This document shows, piece by piece, positions 9,899-49,312 of a DNA stretch of 64,000 bases (position 1 is its first letter; the number at the start of each line of letters is the position of its first letter). Both the position numbers and the translations under genes were made by a program. Source of the stretch: Pasteurellaceae bacterium (GTDB lineage: Bacteria > Pseudomonadota > Gammaproteobacteria > Enterobacterales > Pasteurellaceae); contig JAUNAB010000004.1 of NCBI GenBank assembly GCA_030527795.1, forward strand, positions 1 through 64,000. Reading direction: 5' to 3'. The notes beneath the pieces were generated by a model that made no database searches, was not told the DNA's origin, and saw only the letters and a program-made list of their open reading frames with translations.

Positions 9899-9899
9899 A

Positions 9900-31100: not shown

Positions 31101-31195
31101 CATTATTTACCTTGTTTGTGTTGCCTGTGATTTACTCTTATATTGCAAGTGAGCATAAGCCGTTGCCTGAGTTTATTGAAGAAAAAAGTAGTTAA
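28127..31195 (+). CDS. acrB: RND family multidrug efflux pump (AcrB-like)
   Basis: The 1022-residue inner membrane pump starts FIRRPVLAISLSLLIVILG. It has the proton-relay aspartates in segment 4 (AIGLVVDDAIVVLENVDRH, about 400-418) and the duplicated periplasmic porter domains. Sequence style is that of the Haemophilus AcrB group, which exports macrolides, dyes and detergents in exchange for protons. It lies 20 bases after acrA and closes the operon; a hairpin terminator follows at 31222. The only exact Haemophilus-type AAGTGCGGT I noticed in the window lies here, near 29838. Confidence 0.9.
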   Translation: MKFTDIFIRRPVLAISLSLLIVILGLQAISKLTVREYPEMTTTVITVSTTYAGADASLMQAFVTSKLEEAIAQADNVDYMSSSSAPSSSTITVKMKLNTDPNGALADVLAKVNSVRSELPSGIDDPTVTSSTGGSGMMYLSFVSDKLSASQVTDYIQRVVKPQLFTVEGVAKVSVFGGAEFAMRIWLDPAKMAAQNLSTTQVMTALSNNNVQTAAGSDNGYFTVYKNKVETTTKTVEDLGNLIVSSSGEKLVRLRDIADVELNKESDSTRATANGAEAVVLAIEQTPSANPITVAENVRPLFDNIVKQLPSSIKANILYDKTIAINSSINDVIHTIVEAVVIVLVVILCFIGSLRAIIIPIIAIPISLIGVIFMLQALGFSINLMTLLALILAIGLVVDDAIVVLENVDRHIKEGETPFRAAIIGTREIATPVIAMTITLIAVYSPMALMNGITGSLFKEFALTLAGSVFISGIVALTLSPMMSSKMLKHETSKFEERVNRTLTKLTNLYSYILGLVMNSRKLMLIFAVLIFATVPVLFKSLSSELTPTEDKGAFLGMATMPSNVNVDYVQSAVKPYEEILNKTEEKQYSQVIAGAPDTNKALVITTLKDWKDRSRSQSEIMNDLNEQAKYIPEVSISSFAFPEIDTGEQGPPIVFVLKTAGNIKDLAEVAGTLRDKMNKSGKFVYTSLDLSFDTIQMNIQVDKEKAGTYGITMQQIANTLGSYLSAATVTRVDIDGRAYKVIAQVKRGQRLSPESFKNYYLSASDGTSVPLSSLITMKEEPQPSSLSRFSQLNSASISAVASPTTTTGDAIAWLQDAAKELPQGYTYDWRGEARQLVQEGNALALTFALAVVIIFLVLAIQFESWRDPMVIMISVPLAISGALLVLNLLGFFGKPGATLNIYSEVGLITLVGLITKHGILMCEVAKEEQLHNGLNRVDAIMHAAKVRLRPILMTTAAMIAGLIPLLYASGAGAVMRFSMGVVIVAGLAIGTLFTLFVLPVIYSYIASEHKPLPEFIEEKSS

Positions 31196-31369: not shown

Positions 31370-32440
31370 ATGTTCTCAAAAAAAATTCTAGTCACCGGCG
31401 GTGCTGGGTTTATTGGTTCGGCGGTAGTTCGCCATATTATTAACGATACGCAAGATAGCGTGGTGAATGTTGATAAGCTGACTTACGCGGGCAATTTAGA
31501 GTCGCTTGAAAGTGTGGCGGGCAATGTTCGTTATGCGTTTGAGCAAGTGGATATTTGCGATCGTGCTGAGTTGGATCGCGTGTTTGCACAGTATCAACCT
31601 GATGCAGTGATGCACTTGGCTGCAGAAAGCCACGTTGACCGTTCCATTGACGGACCAGCCGCATTTGTAGAAACCAATATTGTAGGAACTTACAGCTTGT
31701 TAGAAGCTGCACGGGCTTATTGGAATCAGCTACCTGTAAATCGCAAAACCGCATTCCGTTTTCATCATATTTCTACTGATGAAGTGTATGGCGATTTGGA
31801 AGGTACCGATGATTTGTTTACCGAAACTACACCGTATTCTCCATCAAGCCCTTATTCTGCTAGTAAAGCAGGCAGCGATCACTTAGTGCGAGCGTGGTTG
31901 CGTACTTATGGTTTGCCGACAATTGTAACCAATTGCTCTAATAATTATGGTCCGTTCCATTTTCCCGAAAAACTGATTCCGTTGATGATTTTAAATGCCT
32001 TAGATGGCAAAAAGCTGCCCGTGTATGGCAATGGTCAGCAAATTCGTGATTGGCTATTTGTGGAAGATCACGCCCGAGCGTTATATAAAGTGGTAACAGA
32101 AGGCAAAATCGGCGAAACTTACAATATCGGTGGACACAATGAAAAAGCCAATATTGAGGTGGTGAAAACCATTTGTGCTTTATTGGAAGAATTGGTGCCA
32201 ACTAAGCCTGCAGGCGTAGCGAAATATGAAGATTTAATTACCTATGTTACCGACCGTCCAGGACATGATGTGCGTTATGCCATTGACGCGGCAAAAATCG
32301 GATGTGAATTAGGTTGGAAACCGCAAGAAACCTTTGAGAGTGGTATTCGCAAAACGGTTGAATGGTACTTAAATAATAAAAAATGGTGGAGCCGTGTGTT
32401 AGACGGTTCGTATAATTTGGAACGTTTGGGGAATAAATAG
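31370..32440 (+). CDS. rmlB: dTDP-glucose 4,6-dehydratase, first copy
   Basis: The 356-residue extended SDR has the NAD loop GGAGFIGSA (about 10-18), catalytic [10 protein letters not shown] with Tyr and Lys, and the dehydratase motif [11 protein letters not shown]. It converts dTDP-glucose to dTDP-4-keto-6-deoxyglucose. It is a close paralogue of the rmlB at 48251; most residues are identical along the whole length. It is followed by a remnant of rmlA, so this copy is the left-hand half of a broken rmlBA pair. It could be functional. A TATAAT at 31330-31335 may be its -10 box. Confidence 0.93.
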
Positions 32441-32862: not shown

Positions 32863-33972
32863 ATGTCAGAAAAATTAGGAAATGATGAAATTAGTTTAAT
32901 TGACCTATCTAAAACGTTATTGAAAAACAAATGGAAAATTGCTGCTTCAGCAATGGTATGTGCAGGTATTACTGCTGGATATGCATTTCTGGCAAAAGAG
33001 CAATGGACATCTAAAGCGACTATCATTGAACCAACGCTAACAGATGCTAATGATTATGTTTTGCAGAGAAGTGAATACGCTAATATTTTAGATGTAAAAG
33101 ACTTTAATAACCAAGAAATTATACGTAGTCTATTTAGTAAATTTAAAACGGCATTGTTTTCTAGTAATATAAAAAGAGAGTTTTTTGAACAGTCTGAATG
33201 GTTTAAAAAATATGCTAAAGAAAATGCAAATATGGAACAGGAAAAGATCAAATTATTAAGTGAGTTGATTGAGAAAAAATTAGTTATTTCTTTTCCTGAT
33301 CCGAAGAAAAATGCTAATGCAATTGGCGTAACAATTAGCTTCTCAACAGAAATACCAAGTAATGCGCAAATGGTATTATCTGATTATATCAATTTTGTTA
33401 ATAATAAATTAATTCAAGAAGAAAATAGGGATTTTACAACAGATATTAACCTTTCTATCAATAATCTAGAGTTACAAAAGAATAAATTAGAACGTAATAC
33501 GGAAAGCGTGAAAGATATTCAAATTCAGAATCTTTCAACAGCACTAAGCATAGCTAAAGAAGCAGGCATCAAAGAATATACAAAGAGTATTTCTAATAAC
33601 GTATCGTTGCCAGAAGTAGTATTAGGTGATGCTAAAATTCCATTTACTGATTCTAAATTGAGCGATGGCTCATATTTATTTATGTTGGGTGAAAAATACT
33701 TACAAGCACAGTTGGATACATTAAAAAATAATCAACTTATTTATCCTGTAAGCTATTACACAATGACAAAGCAAATCGCATTGCTTAAACAGCTTGAGCA
33801 AGAAGTTAGTATGGATAAAGATCAGAAAAGTTATTACTATCTTTCATCACCTGATTATCCAACACAACGTGATTGGCCAAAACGAGTTATTTTAATTCTT
33901 CTTGGCTTTGTGCTAGGTGGTGTAATTAGTAGTGTTACTATATTAGTTAAAGATTTATTTGGTCGTAAATAA
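32863..33972 (+). CDS. wzz: Wzz-type polysaccharide chain length determinant
   Basis: The 369-residue protein has the Wzz architecture: short cytoplasmic N-terminus with ISLIDLSKTLLKNKW, first membrane segment (about 26-46), a long periplasmic helical part (47-342) and a second membrane segment (about 343-364) with a glycine-rich LGFVLGGVISSV. There is no cytoplasmic tyrosine kinase domain, so it is the O-antigen/ECA type rather than Wzc. It sets chain length together with Wzy. It is the first complete gene of the AT-rich cluster, 3 bases before the next gene. Confidence 0.88.
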   Translation: MSEKLGNDEISLIDLSKTLLKNKWKIAASAMVCAGITAGYAFLAKEQWTSKATIIEPTLTDANDYVLQRSEYANILDVKDFNNQEIIRSLFSKFKTALFSSNIKREFFEQSEWFKKYAKENANMEQEKIKLLSELIEKKLVISFPDPKKNANAIGVTISFSTEIPSNAQMVLSDYINFVNNKLIQEENRDFTTDINLSINNLELQKNKLERNTESVKDIQIQNLSTALSIAKEAGIKEYTKSISNNVSLPEVVLGDAKIPFTDSKLSDGSYLFMLGEKYLQAQLDTLKNNQLIYPVSYYTMTKQIALLKQLEQEVSMDKDQKSYYYLSSPDYPTQRDWPKRVILILLGFVLGGVISSVTILVKDLFGRK

Positions 33973-33974: not shown

Positions 33975-34775
33975 ATGAAAGATATCAAGATTATTATTGC
34001 TACTCATAAGCAATATTTTATGCCTGCGGAGCAAATGTATTTACCGGTTCATGTAGGAAAATTAGGTAAGGAAAGCATTGGTTATCAAGGTGATGATAGT
34101 GGCAATAATATTTCTGAAAAGAACCCTAATTTTTGTGAATTAACTGGACTATATTGGGCATGGAAAAACTTACCTAATGATTATTTAGGTTTAATTCATT
34201 ATCGTCGTTTTTTTAGTGTAAAAAGCTCATCACAACGTCGAAATGCTCCTTTAGAATCCCTTTATTTAACAGAGCAAGAAGCAAGCACTTTGCTTGGACA
34301 ATACGATGTTATTGTACCGAAAAAACGTAATTATTATATTGAAACACTTTATTCTCACTATGCGAACACATTACATGGTAAGCATTTAGATATGACACGC
34401 GCTATTATTGCAGAGACTTGTACGCAGTACTTAGATAGTTTTGATACAGTAATGAAACAGCGTGGTGGATATATGTTTAATATGTTTATTATGTCTCGTG
34501 AATTAGTGAATGATTATTGTAGTTGGCTATTTCCAATCTTATTTGAATTAGAAAAACGTATTCCTGCAGAACAATATTCAGCATTTCACGCTCGTTTTTA
34601 CGGTCGTGTAAGTGAATTATTATTTAATGTATGGCTAAAACAGTATTCGAAAAATAAACCATTAAAAGTAAAAGCAATTCCATTTGTCTATGGAGAGAAA
34701 ATTAACTGGTTGAAAAAAGGTACAGCTTTCCTAATGGCTAAGTTTTTCGGTAAGAAATATGAGAAGAGTTTCTAA
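33975..34775 (+). CDS. DUF4422 capsular/O-antigen glycosyltransferase
   Basis: The 266-residue protein matches DUF4422 glycosyltransferases: KIIIATHKQYFMP at the start, then LTGLYWAWKNL and DYLGLIHYRRFF. Members occur in polysaccharide clusters and are thought to transfer galactose or galactofuranose-type sugars; specificity here is unknown. It has no membrane segment. The stop shares a base with the next gene start (34775). Confidence 0.82.
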   Translation: MKDIKIIIATHKQYFMPAEQMYLPVHVGKLGKESIGYQGDDSGNNISEKNPNFCELTGLYWAWKNLPNDYLGLIHYRRFFSVKSSSQRRNAPLESLYLTEQEASTLLGQYDVIVPKKRNYYIETLYSHYANTLHGKHLDMTRAIIAETCTQYLDSFDTVMKQRGGYMFNMFIMSRELVNDYCSWLFPILFELEKRIPAEQYSAFHARFYGRVSELLFNVWLKQYSKNKPLKVKAIPFVYGEKINWLKKGTAFLMAKFFGKKYEKSF

Positions 34776-35659
34776 TGGAAGATATAATCTCAATTATTAT
34801 TCCTGTATATAATGCAGAAAGTTTTCTATCCCGTTGCATTAATTCTTTAATTAATCAGACGTATAAGAATCTTGAAATTATCTTAGTTGATGATGGTTCT
34901 ACTGATTCATCCTTACAACTTTGTTATGAATTTTCTACTAAAGATAGCAGAATAAAAGTTTTTCATTGAGAAAATGCAGGTGCGGGTTCTGCTAGAAATT
35001 TTGGTATTTCTCAAGCTACAGGAAAATATATCGGTTTTGTAGATTCTGATGACTGGGTTACTCCTGATATGTATCAGTATCTTTATGAACAATTATTATC
35101 GGTAGATGCTGATATCTCAATATGTGAACATATTCGTTGTAAAGATAAACAAGATTCTGAAAATATTTTATCTAAGCTAAATAAAAGAGAAGTATCTATC
35201 CAAGAATATACACAAGAAGAATATATTAAGAAATATATGAAAATTGGTTCTCAATCGATAGAATATTATCCTTGGAATAAACTTTATAAAAGAGTTTTAT
35301 TGGAACATGGGCAATATCCAGTTAATTGTACAACTGAAGATGTTGTTGGTACTTATAAGGCGATTTTAAAGGCATCAAAAATTATTAGTTCAAATAATAA
35401 TCTTTATTTAGAATGGGCAAAAATAAATCGAGCAAGAATTGATTTTAATTTGTTATTTCAGATTTCAACCTCAAAATTATATAATATAATTTTTTAAAAA
35501 ATATTGATTTAATTAATGAGTTATTATCTAATCTAAAGATGAATAGAGAACTTTTATTAAAAGCAGATATTTCTTTGTCAAGAAAGATAATGATTTATTT
35601 TTTTGTCTAAACTATAAATTTTTTCTAAAGTTATTAATTTTTTATATAAGAAGTAAACT
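34775..35659 (+). pseudogene. Decayed family 2 glycosyltransferase
   Basis: The start encodes a normal GT2 N-terminus (SIIIPVYNAESFLSRCINSL, EIILVDDGSTDSSLQL). An in-frame TGA at 34967-34969 then interrupts VFH*ENAGAGSARN; the same frame continues through the DxD motif (GFVDSDDW) to TAA at 35495. A further 37 codons with GT2-like C-terminal character continue in the +1 frame after a T6A6 run (35490-35501) until TAA at 35608. A third frame after a T7 run (35598-35604) gives CLNYKFFLKLLIFYIRSK. One nonsense and two probable frameshifts make it non-functional, unless read-through or slippage occurs. Confidence 0.8.
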
Positions 35660-36472
35660 ATGCGATATTTAAATACAAGAGAAATTCAATTATATGAATT
35701 AGATATTCTTTATAAATTTGTAGAAATCTGTAGAGCATATAATTTAAGATATTATTTATCTGGAGGTACTTTGCTTGGTGCTATTCGCCATAAAGGCTTT
35801 ATTCCTTGGGATGATGATATTGATCTTGCTATGCCAAGAGATGATTTTATGAAATTAGCCGAATTAAGTAAAAATTTTAATGATGACATATATGAGTTTT
35901 TCTTTTTTAGCCAAGATGGAGACTATTTATTACCGTATGGAAAATTAGTTAATAAAAAGACATTTATTGATTCTCAATTTAGTGAGGAAGAAGTATTAAA
36001 GCATTTATGGGTAGATATTATGCCTATGGATGGGTTGCCAGAAGATACTAAGTTAGTAAAAGAAATTTATACTAAGGCAGAAAGATATAGAAAGATAATT
36101 AAATTGTGTAATGCAAAATTAGGTGAAGGAAAAACAGTATTTAAAAAATATGCTAAGTATATTTTAAAGCCTATTGCTAAATTATATGGAAAGAAAAGAG
36201 CTATAAATAATTTAAATAAATTATCAATGGTTTATGATTATAAATCATCTAAATATATTGGAGCGATTAGTTGGGGTCTATACGGTATAGGAGAAAGGAT
36301 GCTAAAATCAGAAGCTGAAAATTCAGTTTTAGTTAATTTTGAAACTGGATGTTTTAATTCTTTTGGTTGCTGGGATTCTTATTTAACAGGATTATATGGT
36401 AATTATATGCAATTGCCACCGAAAGAAAAACAAGTTACCCATAGTATGAAAACGTGGATAGAAGATGAATAA
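35660..36472 (+). CDS. LicD family phosphotransferase
   Basis: The 270-residue protein has the LicD signature YLSGGTLLGAIRHKGFIPWDDDID (about 33-56) with the acidic metal-binding Asp cluster. LicD proteins are nucleotidyltransferase-fold enzymes that move phosphocholine, or ribitol- or glycerol-phosphate-type groups, from CDP donors to glycans. A dedicated choline-kinase set (licABC) is not nearby; the CDP-sugar-type pair at 40132-41908 is a possible donor source (inference). It overlaps the next gene by eight bases. Confidence 0.85.
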   Translation: MRYLNTREIQLYELDILYKFVEICRAYNLRYYLSGGTLLGAIRHKGFIPWDDDIDLAMPRDDFMKLAELSKNFNDDIYEFFFFSQDGDYLLPYGKLVNKKTFIDSQFSEEEVLKHLWVDIMPMDGLPEDTKLVKEIYTKAERYRKIIKLCNAKLGEGKTVFKKYAKYILKPIAKLYGKKRAINNLNKLSMVYDYKSSKYIGAISWGLYGIGERMLKSEAENSVLVNFETGCFNSFGCWDSYLTGLYGNYMQLPPKEKQVTHSMKTWIEDE

Positions 36473-37511
36473 CCCTAAGATTAGCCTTATATTTGCTTGC
36501 TATAATGTATCTCAGTATTTACAAGAACTTTATAGACTACTAATTTCTCAGCCCTATCAAAATATAGAGATAATCTTTGTAGAAGATTGCTCACCAGATA
36601 ATACGTTAGAGATTTTAGAAAGTTTTACTGATAGCCGTATTAAATTAATTAAGAATGAGAAAAATCAAGGAGCTGCGATAAGCCGTAATATTGGAATAAG
36701 TCATGCAACAGGAGAATATATATGGTTTCCTGATCCTGATGACTTATTTAATGTTAATTTGATTTCAGAATCTGCTGATATTCTTAAAACTTATTCTCCT
36801 TCAGTTTTGATATGCGGAATGCGAGAAGAATATGAACTGAATGGTAAACTTGAATATACAAAGGATATCATAAGCTTATTTTCTGGAAAAATTAATAATA
36901 ATTTTTCTGATGTATTAGTAGATTTGGAAAAAACGTTCTTATTTGGTTATACGAATAATAAATTCTATAACTCATCTATTGTTTTGCAAAATAATCTTAG
37001 GAATAAACCGCTTGCACTTAAAGAAGATTTTGAATTTAATATTCAGTTTTTCTCTTTGATAAATGATTTCTATATTTTAAATAAACCATACTATTTTTAT
37101 AAAAAACGTAATAATGGCAGTTTAACTAATAAGTTTGTAAAGGAATATTTTGATATCCATATGGATTCTATCTTTCAATTTAAAAAATTAATGGAGAATA
37201 AGTATGGAATGAATAAGAATGTTGAATCTATTTTAGTAAATCGCTTTGTTAGATATTTCTTATCTGCAGCAGAACGTAATGCAAATCCAGCCTCTGGTTT
37301 AACGCTAACTGAACAAAATAAATGGACTTATATGGTATTGTCTAATCAAAAATACCACTATTTTCTAAGTAATTTAGATTTATTAGTTGGGAGAATGAGA
37401 GTTTTACGTCATTTTCTATCTGCAAGATATTCTTGGGTTATTGTTTTATTTGGCAATTCAATGAAATATCTGAAATCTGGATTACCGGTTTTATTTGCTA
37501 AACTTAAATAG
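36465..37511 (+). CDS. Family 2 glycosyltransferase
   Basis: The 348-residue GT-A enzyme has KISLIFACYNVSQYLQEL, EIIFVEDCSPDNTLEIL (nucleotide-binding Asp) and the DxD-like FPDPDDLF (about 88-95). The C-terminal 100 residues are basic and partly hydrophobic, so it is probably membrane-associated. It adds one sugar to the lipid-linked repeat unit; the sugar cannot be told. It overlaps licD by eight bases. Confidence 0.85.
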   Translation: MNNPKISLIFACYNVSQYLQELYRLLISQPYQNIEIIFVEDCSPDNTLEILESFTDSRIKLIKNEKNQGAAISRNIGISHATGEYIWFPDPDDLFNVNLISESADILKTYSPSVLICGMREEYELNGKLEYTKDIISLFSGKINNNFSDVLVDLEKTFLFGYTNNKFYNSSIVLQNNLRNKPLALKEDFEFNIQFFSLINDFYILNKPYYFYKKRNNGSLTNKFVKEYFDIHMDSIFQFKKLMENKYGMNKNVESILVNRFVRYFLSAAERNANPASGLTLTEQNKWTYMVLSNQKYHYFLSNLDLLVGRMRVLRHFLSARYSWVIVLFGNSMKYLKSGLPVLFAKLK

Positions 37512-37520
37512 GGCGTATTG

Positions 37521-38675
37521 ATGTTTGCTTATAATAAAGGCATATCTACATATATATTTCTTTTTTCTTATTTTTTATGGGTTTTTTTCATTCATATTAG
37601 TGGTAGCCAATATTTTACCTTGTTTGATGGAGATTTTTTGCTTAAGACATTTAATTCAGGGGTAATGGGGCTACTCTTAGTATATGTATTTATTAGTTAT
37701 TCATTTAATAAATCCTCTCTTTTTGATTTGATTATTACCATTGTATTTGCGATAGGTTATCTACATTTTAAAAAGGGGGTGCTTATTTATTTATTTATTA
37801 TATTATGTCGAAAAATTCCTTTTTCTTTTGTTATGAAGACATTTCTATTGGCAACAATATCAGGAATGCTGTTCATATTAATGACATATATATTTAATCT
37901 TTATCCTGAAACATATCTAGACCTTTTCCGAGAAGATGGAACTTATCGGTATTTATTAGGGTATCGCTTTCCTACGTTTTTACCAAATTATTATTTTCAT
38001 CTTGTCCTTTGCTGGTTCTTTATAAGAAAAAAAAATATTACTCTGGGTGAAATATTACTTATATTAAGTATAAATTATCCAATTTATTTATTTACTGATA
38101 CAAAAGCTGCTTATGGATTAGTAATCTTATCTTGTTTAGCTGTATTATTTGTTAAGTATTTTCATATTGCCTACTCAACATTAATATTAGGTAGATTGTA
38201 TAGATTATTCACTAAATATAGTTTTGTGATATTTGCAGCTATAGCAATATATTTTCAATATACATATGATCCTTCCTTTGAATGGATGGGTAAACTGAAT
38301 ACTATGTTTAGTGGACGTCTTGCCTTAGGGCATTGGGGATTTGAACTATATGGTATTCAGCCATTTGGAAACCTTGTTGAATTTACTACAATGTTAGAAG
38401 CAAGTGATACAAATAAATTCTTTTATATCGATTCAGCATATGTGCAGCTATTATTAGTTTATGGTGCAATTATCTTTATTCTAGTTTGTGTCGGTTATAT
38501 GAGAATTGGTCAAATGATAGTAGCTAATAATGATCAATATTTCGGATTAGTCTTAATTATCTTGTTTGCCCATTCGATTACGGATCCGCAGTTGATGTCA
38601 CCAGAATTTAATCCATTTTTACTTTGCTTGGGTTATTACGGGTTAGATAAATATCATAAAAATATTTTTAGGTAA
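37521..38675 (+). CDS. wzy: Probable O-antigen polymerase Wzy
   Basis: The 385-residue, very hydrophobic protein has about ten predicted membrane segments and a larger periplasmic loop (about 245-310, with FSGRLALGHWGFELYGIQPFG). This is the usual Wzy shape; Wzy sequences are poorly conserved, so assignment rests on topology, length, the GRL-x6-FE-x3-G-like loop motif and position next to wzx. The first ATG is at 37521; the TTG three bases before is less likely. Confidence 0.75.
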   Translation: MFAYNKGISTYIFLFSYFLWVFFIHISGSQYFTLFDGDFLLKTFNSGVMGLLLVYVFISYSFNKSSLFDLIITIVFAIGYLHFKKGVLIYLFIILCRKIPFSFVMKTFLLATISGMLFILMTYIFNLYPETYLDLFREDGTYRYLLGYRFPTFLPNYYFHLVLCWFFIRKKNITLGEILLILSINYPIYLFTDTKAAYGLVILSCLAVLFVKYFHIAYSTLILGRLYRLFTKYSFVIFAAIAIYFQYTYDPSFEWMGKLNTMFSGRLALGHWGFELYGIQPFGNLVEFTTMLEASDTNKFFYIDSAYVQLLLVYGAIIFILVCVGYMRIGQMIVANNDQYFGLVLIILFAHSITDPQLMSPEFNPFLLCLGYYGLDKYHKNIFR

Positions 38676-38677
38676 AT

Positions 38678-40129
38678 ATGAAAATTCGCTCTGTTAAATT
38701 TAATTTTGCAATGAATATGCTGTTAACGGTATCAAACTTTCTTTTTCCGTTAATCACATTTCCTTATGTGTCTAGGGTACTAAGTCCAATAGGAACGGGT
38801 AAAGTTGCATTTGCTTATTCAATTGTTTCTTACTTTAGTATTTTTGCTGCATTTGGTGTTGCAAACTATGGGATCCGAGCTTGCGCACAAGTAAGAGATG
38901 ATAAAGAAAAGCTCTCTAAGACAGTACAAGAGATTTTATTTATTAATCTTGTGCTAATGAGTTTTGTTTATATAGTTTATTTTTTAGGTATATATCTAAT
39001 CCCAGAACTAAGAGCAGAGAAAATGTTATTTTTTGTATCTGGCTTAAATATTCTATTTACTATCGTTGGAGTGGAATGGCTTTATAAGGGCGTAGAGCAA
39101 TATTTTTATATTACGATGCGTTCAATCTTCTTTAAGTTATTAGCATTTTTACTTGTCTTTTCTGTTGTAAGAACTGAATCAGATTATAGTATCTATGCTT
39201 TTATTATCATTTTTGCTACGGTAGGGTCTGGCGTTGTTAATTTATATAATTTACGCAAAATAATAGACGTAAAATTATTTAATAGCTATGATTTTAAACG
39301 CCATCTCAAACCGATGTTTACATTCTTTATAACAACAATAGCTGTTGCCTTTTATGTAAATATTAGTGTTGCAATACTTGGCTTCATACAAGGTAATGAA
39401 GAAGTTGGATACTATAATGCAGCGTATCGTATTAAGGATGTTATGGTCAGTATAGTTACTTCTCTCGGTGTCGTTTTATTGCCTAGATTAAGCTATTATA
39501 TTGAAAATAATATGCAAGATAAATTTAGTGATGTTGTTACTAAATCAACACAATTTATTTTTATCTTGGCTTTACCTTTGGTTATATTTTGTATTTTGTT
39601 TGCTAAGCCGTCAGTGCTAATTTTGGCGGGTGAAGCTTATTCTGGCTCAATCATACCATTACAAATCTTATCCATTATTATTTTTGTTGTAGGGCTATCC
39701 AATCTTACTGGTATCCAAATGCTTATTCCTTTAAAAAAGGAGAAGTATTTATGTTACTCAGTTGTGATTGCAGCTGTAATCAACCTTCTGTTAAATCTTT
39801 TATTAATTCCATCTTATGGAGCACGAGGAGCTGCAATTTCTGTAATGGTTGCAGAAGTTACAATTCTAATTTACCAACTCTATGTGTTAAGAAGTTATTC
39901 TAGAGTATTATTTGGTAGTATTAGTTATATGAAACTAATTGTTTCTTTATCTATAGCGGCTACTGTATCAACGTTAATAAATTTACATTTAGAACATAAT
40001 GAAATAATTATATTTTTCATTAGTGCTAGCCTTTTCTTCATTTGTTATTTCGGTATGTTATTACTCTTTAGAGAACAATTTATTTTTACTATTTTAAATC
40101 AACTTAAATCAAAACTAGTTAGGAGGTAA
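38678..40129 (+). CDS. wzx: Polysaccharide repeat-unit flippase Wzx
   Basis: The 483-residue protein has 12-14 membrane segments and the MOP/polysaccharide_synt signature at the start (FPLITFPYVSRVLSPIGTGKVAFAYSIVSYFSIFAAFGVANYGIR). It flips undecaprenyl-linked repeats to the periplasmic face for Wzy. It lies two bases after wzy. Confidence 0.92.
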   Translation: MKIRSVKFNFAMNMLLTVSNFLFPLITFPYVSRVLSPIGTGKVAFAYSIVSYFSIFAAFGVANYGIRACAQVRDDKEKLSKTVQEILFINLVLMSFVYIVYFLGIYLIPELRAEKMLFFVSGLNILFTIVGVEWLYKGVEQYFYITMRSIFFKLLAFLLVFSVVRTESDYSIYAFIIIFATVGSGVVNLYNLRKIIDVKLFNSYDFKRHLKPMFTFFITTIAVAFYVNISVAILGFIQGNEEVGYYNAAYRIKDVMVSIVTSLGVVLLPRLSYYIENNMQDKFSDVVTKSTQFIFILALPLVIFCILFAKPSVLILAGEAYSGSIIPLQILSIIIFVVGLSNLTGIQMLIPLKKEKYLCYSVVIAAVINLLLNLLLIPSYGARGAAISVMVAEVTILIYQLYVLRSYSRVLFGSISYMKLIVSLSIAATVSTLINLHLEHNEIIIFFISASLFFICYFGMLLLFREQFIFTILNQLKSKLVRR

Positions 40130-40131
40130 GT

Positions 40132-40890
40132 ATGAATTCAGCAGTTATTTTTGCGGGCGGAACAGGTTCGCGTATGAACTCTAAAGTGCTGCCAAAACAA
40201 TTTCTCAAAATTTATGGTAAGCCTGTGATTATTCATACTTTAGAAGTATTTGAAAATTGCGATGAGATTGATGAAATTGTAGTAGTTATTCTTCAAAATT
40301 GGGAGCAATATCTTCAAGACTTGCTTGAACAATATCGTATTACGAAGGTGAAGAAAGTTGTAGGTGGTGGCGAGACAGGACAGCAATCTATCTACAATGG
40401 TTTACGAGAAGTTAAAGATGGTATTGTTCTTATTCATGATGGTGTTCGACCTTTTATCACAAGTCAGCTTATCAAAGAAAATATTGAAATGGCGAAAATG
40501 AAACAGATTGCCATTACTTGCGTAAAAGCAAAAGAAACATTGGTATCGGTGGAAGATAATAAGATTAATGGTGTGCTTAAACGTGACGTATCTTACATGG
40601 CAAGAGCACCACAGACTTTTAATGTATCGCTGTTGAAGTCAGCTCATGAGAAAGCTATCGCAGATAATGATTTTTCTTTTGTAGATTCTTGCGCGATTGT
40701 GAAGCATTATTTCCCTGAGTTAGAATTTAATATTGTTGAATATAGCTCAGATAATATCAAGATTACGACACAAGAAGATTTTTATTTAGCTAAAGCAATG
40801 TTCTCACTAGAAGAAGACGAGCAACTTTATGGCTTTAAGCGTGGAGATGAAAAAAATGATAAAGGATTCAGTATTACTAGAAGACCTTAA
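40132..40890 (+). CDS. IspD/TarI-family cytidylyltransferase
   Basis: The 252-residue enzyme has the nucleotide motif AVIFAGGTGSRMNSKVLPKQFL (4-25) and VLIHDGVRPF, typical of IspD and the TarI (ribitol-5-phosphate cytidylyltransferase) family. Its place in a sugar cluster beside a dehydrogenase favours a CDP-alditol or CDP-sugar route rather than isoprenoid synthesis. Haemophilus serotype a/b capsules use a fused cytidylyltransferase-reductase (Bcs1/Acs1) for CDP-ribitol; here two separate overlapping genes are present. The substrate is inferred only. Confidence 0.78.
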   Translation: MNSAVIFAGGTGSRMNSKVLPKQFLKIYGKPVIIHTLEVFENCDEIDEIVVVILQNWEQYLQDLLEQYRITKVKKVVGGGETGQQSIYNGLREVKDGIVLIHDGVRPFITSQLIKENIEMAKMKQIAITCVKAKETLVSVEDNKINGVLKRDVSYMARAPQTFNVSLLKSAHEKAIADNDFSFVDSCAIVKHYFPELEFNIVEYSSDNIKITTQEDFYLAKAMFSLEEDEQLYGFKRGDEKNDKGFSITRRP

Positions 40891-41908
40891 TTTTATTGCT
40901 GATAAAGTATTTAAAGATGGCTTTTTCTCAAATTCTACTATTTTGGTAACAGGGGCTACAGGTCTAATTGGTTCATTAGTTGTTAAAAGTTGCTTATATG
41001 CAAATGAAACATTAGATACAAAAATTAAAGTATTAGCAAGTGTACGTAATTTGGAAAAAGCACAAGATACTTTTGCCGATTTTGCTAATAATCCAAATTT
41101 AGAATTTGTTACAAATAATCTTTTAGAACCATTAACGTTTGGTAAACCTGTAGACTTTATTATTCATACAGCAAGTATCACAGCATCTAAAGAGATGATT
41201 GAGAATCCAACAGGCGTATTATTAACAGCTTTTGAAAGTACCAAAAATTTATTGGAATATGCGAAGGCTCACCCAAACTGTAAGATGGTTTATATTTCAT
41301 CGATGGAATATTACGGACAGATCACAGAGAAACAGGATTCTGTTGCTGAAGAGAGATTAGGCTATATCGATATCAGCAAACCAAGAAGTAGTTATCCTGA
41401 GAGCAAACGTGTTTGTGAAATATTATGTAATGCTTATGCAGCGCAATACGGAGTGAATGTGTGTAGTGCACGTTTGGCTCAAACTTTTGGTGCTGGGGTG
41501 CCTCTTTCTGACAATCGTGTATTTGCCCAATTTGCGAGAAGTGCGATAAAGCAGGAAAACATTGTATTGCATACAAGCGGTCAATCTGAAGGAAATTACT
41601 GCTATACAGCTGATGCTGTTTACGGCATTTTTGTGTTGCTGCAGAAAGGTCAAAATGGCCAAAGTTATAACCTAGCTTATAATCATAGTTCTATTTTGAA
41701 TATGGCAAAACTAGTTGCTGAAAAAATTGCAGAAAATAAGATCAGTGTTGATGTAAATATTCCTGAAAATCTAAGTAGTTTAGGATATGCACCAGACGTT
41801 AAGATGAAATTAGATTCAAGTAAGTTAAAAGCTTTAGGCTGGAAACCTACCGTTGATTTAGAAAATATGTTCCAGAGAATGGTAAAAAGTTGGGAATTAC
41901 AGGGATAA
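40856..41908 (+). CDS. NAD-dependent epimerase/dehydratase-type SDR
   Basis: From ATG 40856 the product has 350 residues: an extended SDR with VTGATGLIGSLVV, VYISSMEYYG, catalytic SSYPESKRVCE (Tyr-x3-Lys) and a C-terminal GWKPTVDLE typical of sugar-nucleotide epimerases. GGAG nine bases before supports this start; ATGs at 40829 and 40847 in the same frame lie inside the preceding gene. Overlap with the cytidylyltransferase suggests coupled translation and a shared pathway. Whether it reduces, dehydrates or epimerises a CDP-linked or free sugar cannot be told. Confidence 0.75.
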   Translation: MIKDSVLLEDLNFIADKVFKDGFFSNSTILVTGATGLIGSLVVKSCLYANETLDTKIKVLASVRNLEKAQDTFADFANNPNLEFVTNNLLEPLTFGKPVDFIIHTASITASKEMIENPTGVLLTAFESTKNLLEYAKAHPNCKMVYISSMEYYGQITEKQDSVAEERLGYIDISKPRSSYPESKRVCEILCNAYAAQYGVNVCSARLAQTFGAGVPLSDNRVFAQFARSAIKQENIVLHTSGQSEGNYCYTADAVYGIFVLLQKGQNGQSYNLAYNHSSILNMAKLVAEKIAENKISVDVNIPENLSSLGYAPDVKMKLDSSKLKALGWKPTVDLENMFQRMVKSWELQG

Positions 41909-41912
41909 AGAT

Positions 41913-43016
41913 ATGAAACAGTATGATTATTTAATTGTTGGTGCCGGTTTATTTGGCTCTATTTTTGCTCATGAAGCAACAAAACGCGGTAAAAAATGTT
42001 TAGTGATCGAAAAACGCGAGCACATTGGTGGAAATTGCTATACCCAAAATGTAGAGGGTATCAATATGCATAAATATGGTGCCCATATTTTCCACACGAG
42101 CAATAAAGTTGTTTGGGATTATATTCAGCAATTTGCTGGGTTTAATCGTTTTACGAACTCTCCTGTAGCTCGTTATAAAGATGAACTCTATAGTTTGCCA
42201 TTTAATATGCTTACTTTTAATAAGATGTGGGGCGTGATTACTCCACAAGAAGCAGAAGCTAAAATTAAAGAGCAGATTGCAAAAGAAAATATTACAGAAC
42301 CTAAAAATTTAGAAGAGCAGGCTATCTCATTGGTTGGCCGCGATATCTATGAAAAGCTAATCAAAGGTTACACCGAAAAGCAATGGGGTCGTAAGTGTAC
42401 TGAATTACCGGCTTTTATTATTAAGCGTTTACCAGTGCGTTATACCTATGATAATAACTACTTCTATGATACTTACCAAGGGATTCCTATTGGGGGATAT
42501 ACAGGTATTTTTGAAAGAATGTTAGAGGGCATTGAAGTAAAACTTAATGTTGATTTCTTTGCAGAGCGTGAATTTTACGAAAACTTAGCTGATAAAATTG
42601 TATTCACAGGAATGATTGATGAGTACTTTGGATACCAATTTGGCAAATTAGAATATCGTAGTTTACGTTTTGATAATGAAGTACTAGATATGCCAAATTA
42701 TCAAGGTAATGCGGTAGTTAACTATACAGAAGCAGAAGTTCCATATACTCGAATTATTGAACATAAGCACTTTGAATATGGTACACAGCCAAAAACTGTA
42801 ATTACCCGTGAACACTCGAAAGAGTATGAGGAGGGTGATGAACCGTACTATCCAATTAATGATGCACGTAATAATGAACTTTATGCTCAATACAAAGCGC
42901 TAGCAGACGAAAAATCAAACGTAATTTTTGGTGGCCGCTTAGCGCAATATAAATATTTTGATATGCATAATATTATTGCGGAAGCGTTGGAATGTGTTTC
43001 ATCAGAATTAAACTAA
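41913..43016 (+). CDS. glf: UDP-galactopyranose mutase
   Basis: The 367-residue flavoenzyme has the FAD loop YLIVGAGLFGSIFAHEA (5-21), GGNCYT, MHKYGAHIFHTSN (substrate loop) and a C-terminal GGRLAQYKYFDMHNII. It converts UDP-Galp to UDP-Galf, so the polymer very probably contains galactofuranose. Length equals E. coli Glf. It lies four bases after the SDR gene. Confidence 0.95.
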   Translation: MKQYDYLIVGAGLFGSIFAHEATKRGKKCLVIEKREHIGGNCYTQNVEGINMHKYGAHIFHTSNKVVWDYIQQFAGFNRFTNSPVARYKDELYSLPFNMLTFNKMWGVITPQEAEAKIKEQIAKENITEPKNLEEQAISLVGRDIYEKLIKGYTEKQWGRKCTELPAFIIKRLPVRYTYDNNYFYDTYQGIPIGGYTGIFERMLEGIEVKLNVDFFAEREFYENLADKIVFTGMIDEYFGYQFGKLEYRSLRFDNEVLDMPNYQGNAVVNYTEAEVPYTRIIEHKHFEYGTQPKTVITREHSKEYEEGDEPYYPINDARNNELYAQYKALADEKSNVIFGGRLAQYKYFDMHNIIAEALECVSSELN

Positions 43017-43025
43017 GTTCTTATC

Positions 43026-44441
43026 ATGAATAAATTAGCACTAAGTAAATTTATATTATTATTAACAGACTGGCTTGTTTTTGGCGGCTCTCTATTCCTT
43101 GCACTATATTTGTTATCATTTAGTGGAAGTATTGAAAGTTACTTTCCTGTAAGCCAGTTGGATAACTATATTCTGATTCACTTTTCTATGGCATTAGTTT
43201 GTGTTGCATGGTTCTGGATTAGACTACGTCACTACACCTATAGAAAACCATTTTGGTTTGAATTAAAAGAAGTATTGAGAACATTGGTAATCTTTTTTGT
43301 TATTGAATTATCGGTAATTGCACTTTCTAAACTCTATGTATCCAGAAAATTATGGATTTTAACATGGGTAATTCTTTTTGTATTGCTTCCGTTAGTTCGC
43401 GTCTTACTCAAAAAGACTCTTATCGCAATAGAATGGTATAAACGAGATACTGTCATTATTGGTAGTGGTAAGAATGCAAAAGAAGTGTATAGAGCCTTAT
43501 CAGATGAATCATATCTTGGTCTAAATCTTTGCTATTTTGTCTCTTCGGATAATATGCCAGTAGATGATTTACAGGGGATGAATGTTATCGATTCAAAGAA
43601 TAATGACATTATTTCATTTTTAAATTTAGATAAAGAAAAAACGCAGTTTATTTTGGCGTTAGATGATGAGCAGTCATTAGACATTTGGTTAAGATATTTA
43701 GCAAAGAATAAGTGCCACTCAGTTTCGGTAATTCCTAGTGTTCGAGGAATCCCACTTTATGGAACTGATATGTCTTTTCTATTTAGCCATGAAATGTTAT
43801 TGCTACGTGTAAATAATAACTTAGCTAAACGTTCATCAAGAATATTGAAACAAACAATGGATATTATAGGTTCGATTGCTATTATTACTCTACTATCTCC
43901 ATTGTTACTGTATCTCTATTTCGCTGTGAAGAAAGATGGTGGCAATGCTATTTATGGTCATCCTCGTATTGGACGAAATGGAAAAACGTTTAAATGTTTA
44001 AAATTCCGTTCGATGGTAGTGAATTCTAAGGAAGTCTTAGAAGAACTATTGAAGAATGATCCTGAGGCTCGAGCTGAATGGGGAAAAGATTTTAAACTTA
44101 AAAATGACCCTCGAATTACTAAAATCGGTCACTTTATTCGTAAAACTAGCTTAGATGAACTACCTCAACTATTTAATGTTCTGAAGGGTGAAATGAGTCT
44201 AGTCGGCCCACGTCCTATCGTTAAAGATGAACTAGAACGCTATGAAGAAGATGTTGATTATTACCTGATGGCAAAACCAGGTATGACAGGTTTATGGCAA
44301 GTAAGTGGTCGTAATGATGTTGATTACGACATACGTGTTTATTACGACTCATGGTATGTCAAAAATTGGTCTCTTTGGAATGATATCGCGATCTTATTTA
44401 AAACTGTTAATGTAGTTTTAAAAAGGGATGGGGCTTATTAG
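43026..44441 (+). CDS. wbaP: Undecaprenyl-phosphate hexose-1-phosphate transferase (WbaP-like)
   Basis: The 471-residue protein has four N-terminal membrane segments, a CoA-binding-like middle domain (VIIGSGKNAKEVYRAL), a re-entrant membrane helix (about 276-300) and the C-terminal catalytic domain. The latter has KCLKFRSMVVNSKEVL, LPQLFNVLKGEMSLVGPRP and PGMTGLWQVSGRN. It starts repeat-unit assembly by moving Gal-1-P (WbaP) or Glc-1-P (WcaJ) to undecaprenyl phosphate. The length and VVNS-x-EVLEELL insert favour WbaP-type. Confidence 0.88.
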   Translation: MNKLALSKFILLLTDWLVFGGSLFLALYLLSFSGSIESYFPVSQLDNYILIHFSMALVCVAWFWIRLRHYTYRKPFWFELKEVLRTLVIFFVIELSVIALSKLYVSRKLWILTWVILFVLLPLVRVLLKKTLIAIEWYKRDTVIIGSGKNAKEVYRALSDESYLGLNLCYFVSSDNMPVDDLQGMNVIDSKNNDIISFLNLDKEKTQFILALDDEQSLDIWLRYLAKNKCHSVSVIPSVRGIPLYGTDMSFLFSHEMLLLRVNNNLAKRSSRILKQTMDIIGSIAIITLLSPLLLYLYFAVKKDGGNAIYGHPRIGRNGKTFKCLKFRSMVVNSKEVLEELLKNDPEARAEWGKDFKLKNDPRITKIGHFIRKTSLDELPQLFNVLKGEMSLVGPRPIVKDELERYEEDVDYYLMAKPGMTGLWQVSGRNDVDYDIRVYYDSWYVKNWSLWNDIAILFKTVNVVLKRDGAY

Positions 44442-44446
44442 AAAAT

Positions 44447-46984
44447 ATGAAAGTTTTATCTAGTCGATTTTGTGTAATTAGTTTTATTTCTGCTATTACG
44501 ACACTGTTTACTGTTATTCTGTTTTTATTTCTAAATAAAATAGCTCCTTTCGGTAATTACACTTTAGTTATTGCTGATGCAGATATTCAGTACTTAGATT
44601 TGTTTTCATATTTTAAGGATATTATATCTGGAGATAAGAGTGTTGGGTATGATTTTTCTAAGGGGCTTGGCGGAAATACATTTGCTGTTTTTTCCTATTA
44701 TTTACTTTCTCCAGTAAATTTATTGCTTGTATTTTTTGATAGATCTGAACTACATTCATTTTTCACTATAGCATTCTTATTAAAAATTATTCTGTCTTCT
44801 ACTTTTTGTTCTATTTTCCTAGCTGCTAGGTTTGAGCATTTAAGAAAGTTATACATAGTGTTACTCTCATTAGGGTATAGCTTCTCTCAGTATACCATTC
44901 TACAAGCTCATAATATTATGTGGTTAGATGGCGTATATATGCTCCCTCTAGTTTTACTAGGAGTATATTATGCTGTAAATAATAAAACTGTTGGTGTGTT
45001 ATCAGTTTCTATTGGATTATCAATGATCTTTAACTGGTATACAGGAATAATCAATTGTCTATTTTCTGCTGTATGGATGCTGTTTGAAGTTAGTTATAAA
45101 AATTCTAGTTTCAAAGAGAGATTTTGGGGAATAGGTAGATATGCATTAGAGATGTTAGTAGGTCTACTTTTATGCTCTTTTATTTTTATACCTACTTATT
45201 TTGAATTACAAAATGGTAAGGGTGGATTAGACCTTTGGTTGTTAAATACAGATTTTATAGGAAATATTGTAAGTCTATTAAAAGGTACTTTAATTGGTTC
45301 TAAGGATGCTAAAGGGCAGTTATCATTATTTTCTGGAACAATAGCATTAATCGGTTTTAGCCTATACTTAGCTAGAATAGTTAAAGAACCGAGTAGAAGA
45401 GATAAAGCTGTTTTTTTATTACTATGTATTACAGTTTTACTTTTCTACTGGAATCCTTTGGTACTAGTTTTTTCTATTTTTAAGAAAGTAGATAGTTATT
45501 GGTATAGATATAGTTATGTAGCTCATATAAGTTATATCTTTATAGCAGCTTATATGCTGAGTCAAGTATCTAGATTGAAAGAATATACTTTATCTTTAGT
45601 AAAATTAGGTTTTCTTCTAGGTGCCTTACTGTTAGTTATAGCTTATTCTAGAAATGAAGAATATAAGCTTATATATATAACATTATTCTTATATTTTTGT
45701 TTTGTAAGTATATTATATACTCTTAGTAGTAAAAATAAGTATGTAAACTTATTTAGTTATTCAACACTATTGTTTCTCTCTGTTTTAGAGCTAGAGGTGA
45801 ATGCTGGGTATATAAAAGGAGTACGGAATGATGCATCAGATTTTATATCATATTCAGGCTCCCAAAATGAGTTTATTAATAAACTAAAAGAATCAGATCC
45901 CGATTTTTATCGAGTTTCTCAGCTCAAAAATAGGAAAGTAAATTCAGAAAATATAACGGCATATTATTTGGAGTCTCTAGCCTATAACTACGCTGGTTTG
46001 AATATTTACACATCTTCATCAGATAAAAATCAGTTGGATTTACTAAGTAATTTAGGATATCCCCAATATGCTGGAACTTTAAATGTAGTTAATACATCAA
46101 TTTTACCTGTTGATTCTTTATTAAATGTTAAATATATTCTTTCAGATAAGGATGTAAAAGGACTTGTTAAAGATGAGAAAATATCTACTAAAAATGGAAA
46201 GTTTGCTTATCTAAATCCATATGCATTACCATTGGCATTTACACATTACTCTAATGATAAAGTAAATATAGAATTTTCTGATAACCCTTTTAGAAATATA
46301 AACTCTATTTATAGTTATTTAGTAGGAAGGGATGTTAGTATATTTCGTAAAGTTAAATATAGTATAAACTACTCTCTTAATAGTCTTAATGTGATATTTG
46401 GTGATAGTGCAAAAGATATAAGTTTTTATGGATATATAGATACTAAAAAAGGAGTGGATGGTAAGTTATTTTTAAATGATAAATTCTTGACGGGATACTC
46501 TAAATGGCTTGCTCCAAGAGTTGTTTACTTAGGAGAGCAAACTGGCGTAGATAATATATTAAAATTATCAGCTAAAAATATTTCATCTAAAGATATATCG
46601 AGTATTGAGATCTATGCATTGGATCTTAATGTATTTTCTGAAGTAATTTCAGAACTAAGAGGTATGAATTTAGTGGAAGATGTTAGTGTCAAAAATGGCT
46701 ATGTTAACATCAACTTAAAACAGTCAAGTAAGAACTATTCATTATTTTTAACTATCCCATATAATTCAGGATGGACATTCAAACTAAATGGAGAGGTTAT
46801 TAATCCTAAAGTTGTATATGACGCATTTATTCAAATAAATCTAGAATCTGGTAGGAGCTATCAGTTAGAAATGAGTTACTCTATACCTAAATTATATTTA
46901 GGATTATTGTTGTCTCTTATTGGAGTATTGGCGTTAATTTTTCTAATTTCATGGGGTAAGCGTGTTAAAAAGACAAATAATTAG
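44447..46984 (+). CDS. YfhO family membrane glycosyltransferase (GT-C type)
   Basis: The 845-residue protein has about 12 membrane segments in the first 430 residues, a large extracytoplasmic domain (about 440-815) and a final membrane segment (about 818-838). Family marks are the acidic first loop (NYTLVIADADIQYLDLFSYF), GGNTFAVFSYYLLSPVNL and MWLDGVYMLPLVLLG. YfhO proteins transfer a sugar from undecaprenyl phosphate on the outer face, known from Gram-positive teichoic acid glycosylation with a GtrB-like and a GtrA-like partner. Those partners are the next two genes. It overlaps gtrA by 23 bases. Confidence 0.85.
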   Translation: MKVLSSRFCVISFISAITTLFTVILFLFLNKIAPFGNYTLVIADADIQYLDLFSYFKDIISGDKSVGYDFSKGLGGNTFAVFSYYLLSPVNLLLVFFDRSELHSFFTIAFLLKIILSSTFCSIFLAARFEHLRKLYIVLLSLGYSFSQYTILQAHNIMWLDGVYMLPLVLLGVYYAVNNKTVGVLSVSIGLSMIFNWYTGIINCLFSAVWMLFEVSYKNSSFKERFWGIGRYALEMLVGLLLCSFIFIPTYFELQNGKGGLDLWLLNTDFIGNIVSLLKGTLIGSKDAKGQLSLFSGTIALIGFSLYLARIVKEPSRRDKAVFLLLCITVLLFYWNPLVLVFSIFKKVDSYWYRYSYVAHISYIFIAAYMLSQVSRLKEYTLSLVKLGFLLGALLLVIAYSRNEEYKLIYITLFLYFCFVSILYTLSSKNKYVNLFSYSTLLFLSVLELEVNAGYIKGVRNDASDFISYSGSQNEFINKLKESDPDFYRVSQLKNRKVNSENITAYYLESLAYNYAGLNIYTSSSDKNQLDLLSNLGYPQYAGTLNVVNTSILPVDSLLNVKYILSDKDVKGLVKDEKISTKNGKFAYLNPYALPLAFTHYSNDKVNIEFSDNPFRNINSIYSYLVGRDVSIFRKVKYSINYSLNSLNVIFGDSAKDISFYGYIDTKKGVDGKLFLNDKFLTGYSKWLAPRVVYLGEQTGVDNILKLSAKNISSKDISSIEIYALDLNVFSEVISELRGMNLVEDVSVKNGYVNINLKQSSKNYSLFLTIPYNSGWTFKLNGEVINPKVVYDAFIQINLESGRSYQLEMSYSIPKLYLGLLLSLIGVLALIFLISWGKRVKKTNN

Positions 46985-47318
46985 TTATTCCTTTATTGGT
47001 GTGTTAAATACACTAGTTCATTGGGGAGTGTTTTTAATTGTATTTAAATTGATTGAAATGCAGTCTATTAGTAATGTTATGGCGTTCATTTGTGCTGTTA
47101 TTTTTTCTTTTTTTATGAATGCTCGTTTTACTTTCAAAAAGAAAAGCACTTATAAAAGAATGGTTTGGTATATGCTTTTAATGGGCAGTTTGAATTTTAC
47201 TATAGGATATATTTCTGATGTAATCAGTCTTCCAGCTTTTGCAACATTACTCATATCATCAATTTTAGGCCCTGTACTTGGTTTTATTTTCTCAAAGTAT
47301 TTAGTTTTTAAAGGATAA
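46962..47318 (+). CDS. GtrA-like polyprenyl-sugar flippase
   Basis: The 118-residue protein has four membrane segments, starting FIGVLNTLVHWGVFLIVFK and with NARFTFKKKSTY at the loop, typical of GtrA/GtcA. It starts at GTG 46962, inside the YfhO gene. It is thought to flip undecaprenyl-phosphate-sugar made by GtrB. The next gene follows after three bases. Confidence 0.88.
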   Translation: MLKRQIISYSFIGVLNTLVHWGVFLIVFKLIEMQSISNVMAFICAVIFSFFMNARFTFKKKSTYKRMVWYMLLMGSLNFTIGYISDVISLPAFATLLISSILGPVLGFIFSKYLVFKG

Positions 47319-47321
47319 TAT

Positions 47322-48254
47322 ATGAAGGTTTCTTTAGTAGTTCCTTGTTTTAATGAAGAACAGACAATTCCTTTGTTTTGGAAAGCTGTTTCAGAGCATC
47401 AAATCTTTTCTAACCATAATATTGAAATTGTATTTATAGATGATGGTAGTAGAGATAATACAAATTCAGTTTTATTACATTTAGAAGAGCAACATAGTGA
47501 GCATATAAAGGTACTTTCTTTTTCTAGAAATTTTGGGAAAGAAGCTGCATTATTTGCGGGTATTGAACATGCCACAGGGGATGTTGTAATTCCTATTGAT
47601 GTTGATTTGCAACACCCACTAGATGTTATTCCTATCATGATTGAGAGATATAATGAAGGATTTGATGTTGTTTTAGCTAAATGCCAAGAAAAAGATTCTT
47701 ACAGCTTTATTAAACGAGTTACATCTCAATGGTTTTATAAATTTCATAATAAAATCTCAACACCTAAGATTGAAGAAAATGTTGGAGATTTCCGCTTGAT
47801 ATCTAGAGATGTTGTAGAAGCAATTAAACGACTTCCTGAGCGCCAATTATTTATGAAAGGTATTTATGCATGGGTAGGATTTTCATCAACAATTATTAAT
47901 TATGAAATTGAAGAGCGTTCTGCTGGAGCAAGTAAATTTAATGGTTGGAAATTATGGAATTTGGCCTTAGAAGGGATTACTTCATTTAGTACTGTGCCAT
48001 TAAGGGTTTGGAGTTATCTTGGCGGAGGAATTTCATTACTAAGTTTTCTATATGGTTTTTACTTGATTTTGGGTAAATTATTTTTTGGTAACCCTGTACC
48101 TGGTTATCCATCAATTATGGTAGCCGTATTATTTTTAGGCGGTGTACAGCTAATTGGCATTGGTGTACTAGGAGAATATATAGGACGAATTTATTTAGAA
48201 TCTAAACAACGTCCAAGATATATTTTAAAAAATAAGAAAGCAAAGATGAAATGA
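47322..48254 (+). CDS. GtrB/DPM1-like undecaprenyl-phosphate glycosyltransferase
   Basis: The 310-residue GT2 enzyme has [45 protein letters not shown] and DVDLQHP, followed by two C-terminal membrane segments (about 228-250 and 263-287). It loads undecaprenyl phosphate with glucose, GlcNAc or another hexose. Its stop overlaps the rmlB start (ATGA at 48251-48254), joining the AT-rich cluster directly to the rml genes. Confidence 0.9.
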
Positions 48255-49312
48255 AAATCCTAATCACAGGTGGGGCTGGTTTTATTGGCTCTGCCGTTGT
48301 TCGTTATATTATCCAGCAAACATCTGATGCAGTAATCAATGTTGATAAGCTCACTTACGCTGGGAATTTAGAATCGCTCGAGAGTGTGGAAAACAACCCT
48401 CGTTATGCATTTGCTCAAGTGGATATTTGCGATAAAGTCGCACTTGAGAAAGTGTTTGTGGAGCATCAGCCTGATGCAGTAATGCACCTCGCAGCAGAGA
48501 GCCATGTTGACCGTTCGATTAATGGGCCCGCAGCATTTATTGAAACCAATATTGTGGGGACTTACACGCTATTAGAAGTGGCTCGTGCTTACTGGAATCA
48601 ATTAGACAGCGATAAAAAAGCAGCTTTTCGTTTTCATCATATTTCAACTGATGAAGTGTATGGCGATTTGGAAGGTACGGATGATCTATTCACAGAAAAC
48701 ACCCCTTACGCTCCAAGCAGTCCTTACTCAGCATCGAAAGCCTCAAGCGATCACTTGGTTCGTGCGTGGTTGCGTACTTATGGCTTGCCAACAATCGTCA
48801 CCAACTGCTCAAATAACTATGGTCCTTTCCATTTCCCTGAAAAACTAATTCCGCTGATGATCTTAAATGCGTTAGACGGCAAGCCATTACCTGTTTACGG
48901 AAACGGTCAGCAGATTCGCGATTGGCTATTCGTGGAAGATCACGCCCGTGCATTATATAAAGTGGTAACCGAAGGCGAAATTGGAGAAACCTACAATATT
49001 GGTGGCCATAACGAAAAAGCTAACATTGATGTGGTGCGTACCATTTGCGCCTTATTAGAAGAGCTTGTGCCAAACAAACCAGCAGGCGTGGCGAAATACA
49101 AAGATTTAATCACTTATATGAAAGACCGCCCAGGTCACGACGTGCTTTATGCAATCGACGCAGCAAAAATCGGGCGTGAACTTGGTTGGAAAACGCAAGA
49201 AACCTTTGAATCAGTCATTCGTAAAACTGTTGAATGGTATCTCGCAAATAAAAAATGGTGGAGCCGCGTATTAGATGGTTCTTACAACCGTGAGCGTTTA
49301 GGTAATAACTAA
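48251..49312 (+). CDS. rmlB: dTDP-glucose 4,6-dehydratase, second copy
   Basis: The 353-residue enzyme has [20 protein letters not shown] and [10 protein letters not shown]. It is nearly co-linear with the copy at 31370 and most residues agree, but the N-terminus (MKILITGG) and many third codon positions differ. It is translationally coupled to gtrB and followed by rmlA and rmlD, so it is probably the main dTDP-rhamnose copy. Confidence 0.94.

Follow-up and report, generated by a model that had tools for sequence, protein, structure and literature searches.

In Campylobacter jejuni, the enzyme HS5.17 (8V4G, 8V4H) reduces CDP-6-D-fructose made by its cytidylyltransferase (CT) partner (PMC10918830). 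The available text of that paper reports about 400 pairings of PF01128 with PF01370, two of them characterised, and predicts such pairs in more than 200 organisms, so that a reading of the split pair considered here as unusual is not supported. Similarly, Mnp1 and Mnp2 of Streptococcus pneumoniae 35A give CDP-6-fructose and then CDP-mannitol, and Mnp2 is 30% identical to HS5.17 (both in the available text of PMC10918830), which is about the distance from HS5.17 of the SDR in the window (the whole stretch of 64,000 nucleotides of Pasteurellaceae DNA that was analysed). Mnp1/Mnp2, compared by description, have the same pair architecture as the window, and HS5.18/HS5.17 likewise consist of a PF01128 CT beside a PF01370 SDR in a surface-polysaccharide cluster. 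AbpA and AbpB of S. pneumoniae 17F, reportedly the CDP-arabinitol pair of Wang et al. in 2012, are comparable, again by description, in joining a CT and a reductase for a CDP-pentitol. The product of abpA is described as acting in the synthesis of CDP-arabinitol (PMC10118250, in the part available).

Haemophilus influenzae Bcs1 and Staphylococcus aureus TarIJ, which make CDP-ribitol, also combine an IspD/TarI-type CT with an NADPH-dependent reductase, although in Bcs1 the two are fused, whereas the window holds two open reading frames (ORFs). TarJ is a medium-chain dehydrogenase and belongs to a different reductase family from the PF01370 SDR. In Bcs1 and TarIJ reduction comes before activation, according to the title of reference 48 of PMC10918830. 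Within the Pasteurellaceae, the O-antigen cluster of H. parainfluenzae strain 17 carries Glf (17D), a WefL-like protein (17F) and two CDP-ribitol genes (17I/17J), read in the available text of PMC3989065 as specifying a galactofuranose (Galf) plus ribitol-phosphate O-antigen. Compared by description, it shares with the window both Glf and a predicted alditol-phosphate, but its alditol genes are those assigned to CDP-ribitol in that text. Among the papers searched, none dealt with a pair for CDP-hexitol or CDP-arabinitol from Pasteurellaceae.

The polysaccharide cluster and the gene pair

The features of the cluster, in window positions, are these:

28127-31195, upstream of the cluster: efflux-pump gene reading as acrB (by eye)
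31370-32440, + strand: rmlB-like (name read from the ORF)
32863-33972, + strand: Wzz chain-length determinant (PF02706, E 3.9e-12)
33975-34775, + strand: DUF4422 protein, probable glycosyltransferase (PF14393, E 1.2e-87)
about 34778-35497, + strand: interrupted GT2 with one in-frame stop (TGA at 34967-34969)
35660-36472, + strand: LicD-family phosphotransferase, proposed alditol-phosphate transferase (PF04991, E 1.3e-42)
36465-37511, + strand: GT2 glycosyltransferase (PF00535, E 3.5e-30)
37518-38675, + strand: membrane protein, probable Wzy polymerase (by position and relatives only)
38678-40129, + strand: Wzx flippase, directly upstream of the CT/SDR pair (PF01943, E 4.7e-35)
40132-40890, + strand: CT, IspD/TarI-type cytidylyltransferase, 252-aa ORF (PF01128 IspD, E 3.4e-45)
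40856-41908 (favoured start), + strand: extended SDR, proposed NADPH-dependent CDP-ketose reductase (PF01370, E 2.2e-36)
41913-43016, + strand: Glf, UDP-galactopyranose mutase, galactofuranose supply (TIGR00031, 436.5 bits; cut-off 303.75)
43026-44441, + strand: WbaP-type undecaprenyl-phosphate sugar transferase (TIGR03022, 532 bits; cut-off 403)
44447, + strand: YfhO
46962, + strand: GtrA-like
47322, + strand: GT2
48251-49312, + strand: rmlB-like (name read from the ORF)
after the second rmlB-like gene, + strand: rmlA-, rmlD- and rmlC-like ORFs (names read from the ORFs)

The cluster is of the Wzx/Wzy type, and its LicD gene is intact. The IspD/TarI-type enzyme does overlap an extended SDR, as two ORFs with the Pfam matches listed above, and licD does lie nearby, 3.7 kb upstream in the same + strand gene run; on both counts the initial annotation was correct. 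The protein at 37518-38675 has no Pfam match and a homologue 79% identical at the same place in a related locus (L011). G+C content is 34-35% in the pair, 30% across 33975-48254 and 41% in the acrB-like gene.

Three further features of the window may be recorded. The interrupted GT2 has no counterpart between DUF4422 and LicD in L011 and may be a decaying extra gene. The cluster is flanked by two closely similar rmlB-like genes, a possible seam for whole-cassette recombination. Beyond them, the neighbouring ORFs at 51145-52137 (a DUF5672 protein) and 52206-52652 (shorter) have alike beginnings.

The longest ORF of the SDR runs from 40829 to 41908 (359 aa). Because its closest relatives (L008-L011), when aligned with it, begin at window Met10 (40856), an overlap with the CT of 35 nt is more likely than one of 62 nt. 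The CT of these relatives stops about 10 codons sooner, ending in ...GDEKK/R/E or NEK, whereas in the window a run of seven A at 40850-40856 gives the CT a short end that does not resemble theirs; slippage or a sequencing error could account for this, and only these last codons are affected. Two separate ORFs set the pair apart from the fused CDP-ribitol synthase, as had been proposed, and a Bcs1-like reading was rejected since CT and reductase are not one polypeptide.

Conservation of the two genes as a pair

The arrangement of CT and SDR is not chance, for the same order recurs in two Haemophilus parainfluenzae records, in Pasteurella langaaensis and in Xenorhabdus griffiniae, at identities of 83-90% for the CT and 72-75% for the SDR. 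Twelve loci carry an SDR of the same type (the window and L008-L018, the latter from named genomes). Nine of them have the CT next to the SDR, and two (L014 and L016) have it 4-5 kb away; in L013 none was found within the 11.6 kb examined. A LicD match is present in 10 of the 12, the window included, and absent from L009 and L013. LicD, CT and SDR are contiguous in L018 and in L026, and LicD also lies directly upstream of the CT in L016, where the two genes overlap by 4 nt. Thirteen additional sequences (L021, L025-L036), which are excluded from the 12, have a CT beside the SDR in six cases and none within the flank of about 1.5 kb in the other seven, whose SDRs are more distant.

In a tree of 29 rows, which like the comparison with these 13 sequences used only the final 360 residues of L016 and a partial sequence of HS5.17, the window SDR falls in a group of 12 rows (support 100/97) nested in a clade of 15 (100/99) that adds L025, L026 and HS5.17. 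CT-paired members make up 14 of these 15, counting L014 and L016 with their CT 4-5 kb off. HS5.17 sits on a long branch, and since the AU test does not reject a tree that places it outside the 14 others (p 0.355), it may be their sister.

Among 140 Pasteurellaceae genomes, five encode the SDR (E 1e-20) and the same five the CT (E 1e-45), side by side in all five. In four of them the SDR is of the same type as in the window, and in G119 it is a distant one (26%). Two of 369 evenly drawn Gammaproteobacteria genomes match at E 1e-60, one being the window's own genome, and 12 of 398 genomes from the phylum of the Blautia locus match at E 1e-50. Four pattern matches came from viral contigs, none of them encoding a relative.

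Two loci deserve separate mention. In Butyrivibrio sp. NC3005 (L016, 6987-9080) a single frame of 697 aa joins an ABC-transporter ATPase domain to the SDR that follows it. In Xenorhabdus griffiniae (L009, 5823-9062) Wzx, CT and SDR stand together at 72-84% identity within 17 kb that hold no Glf, WbaP or LicD match, which suggests transfer of a three-gene piece.

Identity of the enzymes

The CT was rejected as the housekeeping IspD. On the ispD equivalog model TIGR00453 it falls just short (178.4 bits against a cut-off of 181.3), and a separate ispD elsewhere in the genome scores 239.6 bits on the same model, above the cut-off. Given that the genome has its own ispD, followed by an ORF that reads by eye as IspF, a CT accepting only methylerythritol phosphate seems unlikely. 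LicD, for its part, is the single match of its family in the genome, in which no match to the choline kinase family PF01633 appeared at E 0.001. A role as phosphocholine transferase was rejected on this ground, a weak one that covers one kinase family. The co-occurrence of LicD with the pair, its being the sole LicD of the genome and the lack of that choline kinase match together point to LicD as the likely transferase.

The SDR finds HS5.17 first among PDB sequences (8v4g/8v4h, phmmer E 1.4e-41), with the UDP-glucuronate decarboxylases as the next family (E 7.4e-27), and is identical to it at 98 of 303 aligned residues by phmmer and at 91 of 304 by MAFFT. Likewise, the top four Foldseek rows for its AlphaFold model (pLDDT 70.4, pTM 0.77, built on 10 sequences and poor around residues 150-184, at the pocket) are the four chains of 8v4g/8v4h. 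The model places a helix at residues 5-19, before the first strand at 28, and HS5.17 has such an extra N-terminal helix preceding its first strand (PMC10918830, in the text available). With HS5.17 the window SDR shares 30-32% identity, this helix, the Tyr-Lys and Met-Glu pairs and the sugar-pocket Gln and Arg. After the catalytic Ser/Thr, where the 4,6-dehydratases cited in PMC10918830 carry Asp-Lys or Asp-Glu, it has Met159-Glu160 in the numbering of the 359-aa ORF. A dehydratase or epimerase was therefore rejected, as Met-Glu replaces the dehydratase pair and the best match is a CDP-ketose reductase. The initial annotation had seen an epimerase rather than a reductase; with a CDP-ketose reductase as the closest characterised relative by both sequence and fold, a reductase is most likely.

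It might still be supposed that the two genes work independently of each other, the CT supplying CDP-ribitol or a spare methylerythritol phosphate step and the SDR an epimerised or dehydrated NDP-sugar, given that the CT scores close to generic IspD models and that extended SDRs include epimerases and dehydratases. The recurrence of the pair in distant phyla, the separate ispD of the genome, and the Met-Glu pair of an SDR whose best match is a reductase make this very improbable.

The substrate pocket

Nineteen contact positions of HS5.17, taken from the available text of PMC10918830, were mapped onto the window and the other SDRs of its type, S100, R164, R233 and L296 by MAFFT only. The window matches HS5.17 at thirteen of them (R56, K60, T98, S100, M139, E140, R164, Y167, K171, Q196, R208, T227 and Y295) and departs from it at six (N34T, T195A, D212Q, F226H, R233G and L296A). 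All 12 SDRs of this type share these letters, with the sole exception of Ser at 195 in L016. The SDR therefore differs from HS5.17 at D212, R233, F226 and three further contact positions, but retains the catalytic and open-chain-sugar residues Y167, K171, E140, Q196 and R208. Retention of the Met-Glu pair and of E140, Q196 and R208, whose side chains face the sugar, favours a reductase acting on an open-chain substrate.

In HS5.17 the contacts at T195, F226 and L296 are made by the backbone (PMC10918830, available text), so the side-chain changes that matter would be those at D212, R233 and N34. The side chains of D212 and R233 grip cytosine and pyrophosphate in HS5.17, where R164 also contacts the beta-phosphate and T227 and Y295 contact cytosine (same source and limits). 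Of six CDP-binding side chains the window keeps four (S100, R164, T227 and Y295), and D212Q and R233G stand in 12 of 12. Judged from these aligned residues, the one real oddity of the SDR is a CDP end of the pocket that appears partly rebuilt. The loss of D212 and R233 could reflect another mode of CDP binding, another chain length or another substrate; with both changes in all 12, the SDR may differ from HS5.17 in the length and stereochemistry of its alditol and even in whether activation comes first.

Two alternatives concern the substrate and the sequence of reactions. In the first, the CT would activate D-xylulose-5-phosphate (or ribulose-5-phosphate) and the SDR would form CDP-arabinitol or another CDP-pentitol, as AbpA/AbpB reportedly do. 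A 240-aa AbpA acts in CDP-arabinitol synthesis (PMC10118250, in part), the Galf and alditol-phosphate O-antigen locus of H. parainfluenzae strain 17 is read as ribitol (PMC3989065, in part), the CT scores above the cut-off of NF001183, a broad subfamily model named D-ribitol-5-P CT (169.4 bits; cut-off 166), and the subfamily-wide D212Q and R233G at the pyrophosphate end could fit a shorter chain. However, E140, which in HS5.17 holds the hexitol C5 hydroxyl (PMC10918830, in part), is kept together with Q196 and R208 in 12 of 12, and a pentulose, though a serious competitor, is considerably less probable than a hexulose.

In the second, reduction would come first: the SDR would act on the free ketose phosphate, and the CT would activate the resulting alditol phosphate, in the order of Bcs1 and TarIJ. 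The loss of two CDP-holding side chains in all 12 (D212Q and R233G) favours it, but R164, T227 and Y295 are equally kept in 12 of 12, and a PF01370 SDR is not of TarJ's dehydrogenase class. Further, HS5.18 given glucitol-6-phosphate formed less than 1% product (PMC10918830, in the available text), and a reduction-first order is accordingly regarded as improbable.

One Pasteurellaceae locus differs. L019 (G119, 8214-9967) has the same Wzx-CT-SDR-Glf-WbaP order as the window, with a CT at 68% and an SDR that is distant (26%), keeps Arg233 and Asp212, and has Arg and His at positions 139 and 196, respectively. On its sequence, this locus appears to be a case in which nature has exchanged the second enzyme.

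Proposed pathway and its implications

From the gene pair, its conserved pairing, the families of its members and the retained catalytic and sugar-contact residues, we infer what the two enzymes act on, in which order they act and what LicD does, as follows. The CT would couple an open-chain ketose phosphate, D-fructose-6-phosphate being the most likely, with CTP and so form a CDP-ketose, whose C2 keto group the SDR would reduce with NADPH, yielding a CDP-hexitol (glucitol or mannitol); LicD would move the alditol-phosphate onto the repeat unit; and Wzx and Wzy would export and then polymerise the repeat units. That the pair makes some CDP-alditol by activation and then reduction is held with high confidence, and this order is probably the opposite of that in Bcs1 and TarIJ. 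The more specific claim, a CDP-hexitol made via a CDP-ketose for the polysaccharide of this cluster and transferred by LicD, is put forward with moderate confidence as the reading we favour.

The phosphodiester-linked alditol that the initial annotation considered plausible thus fares well, its best reading now being a CDP-activated alditol transferred by LicD, in view of the HS5.17-like SDR and of LicD in 10 of 12 loci. The prediction has become specific, namely a phosphodiester-linked alditol and an SDR that is a reductase, not an epimerase. More tentatively, and less probably than not, the subfamily that spans Pasteurellaceae, Xenorhabdus and Lachnospiraceae-type gut bacteria may in all 12 members combine a remodelled CDP end of the HS5.17 pocket (Asp212 to Gln, Phe226 to His, Arg233 to Gly) with a retained open-chain sugar end, and may make an alditol new to CT-SDR pairs, in a Gram-negative O-antigen.

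The two-enzyme route itself is already known from Campylobacter and pneumococcus, and the pair in these Pasteurellaceae is one of a subfamily whose CDP pocket is changed. Finally, the retention of the CT beside a distant SDR in G119 points to exchange of the alditol itself from one O-antigen type to another.
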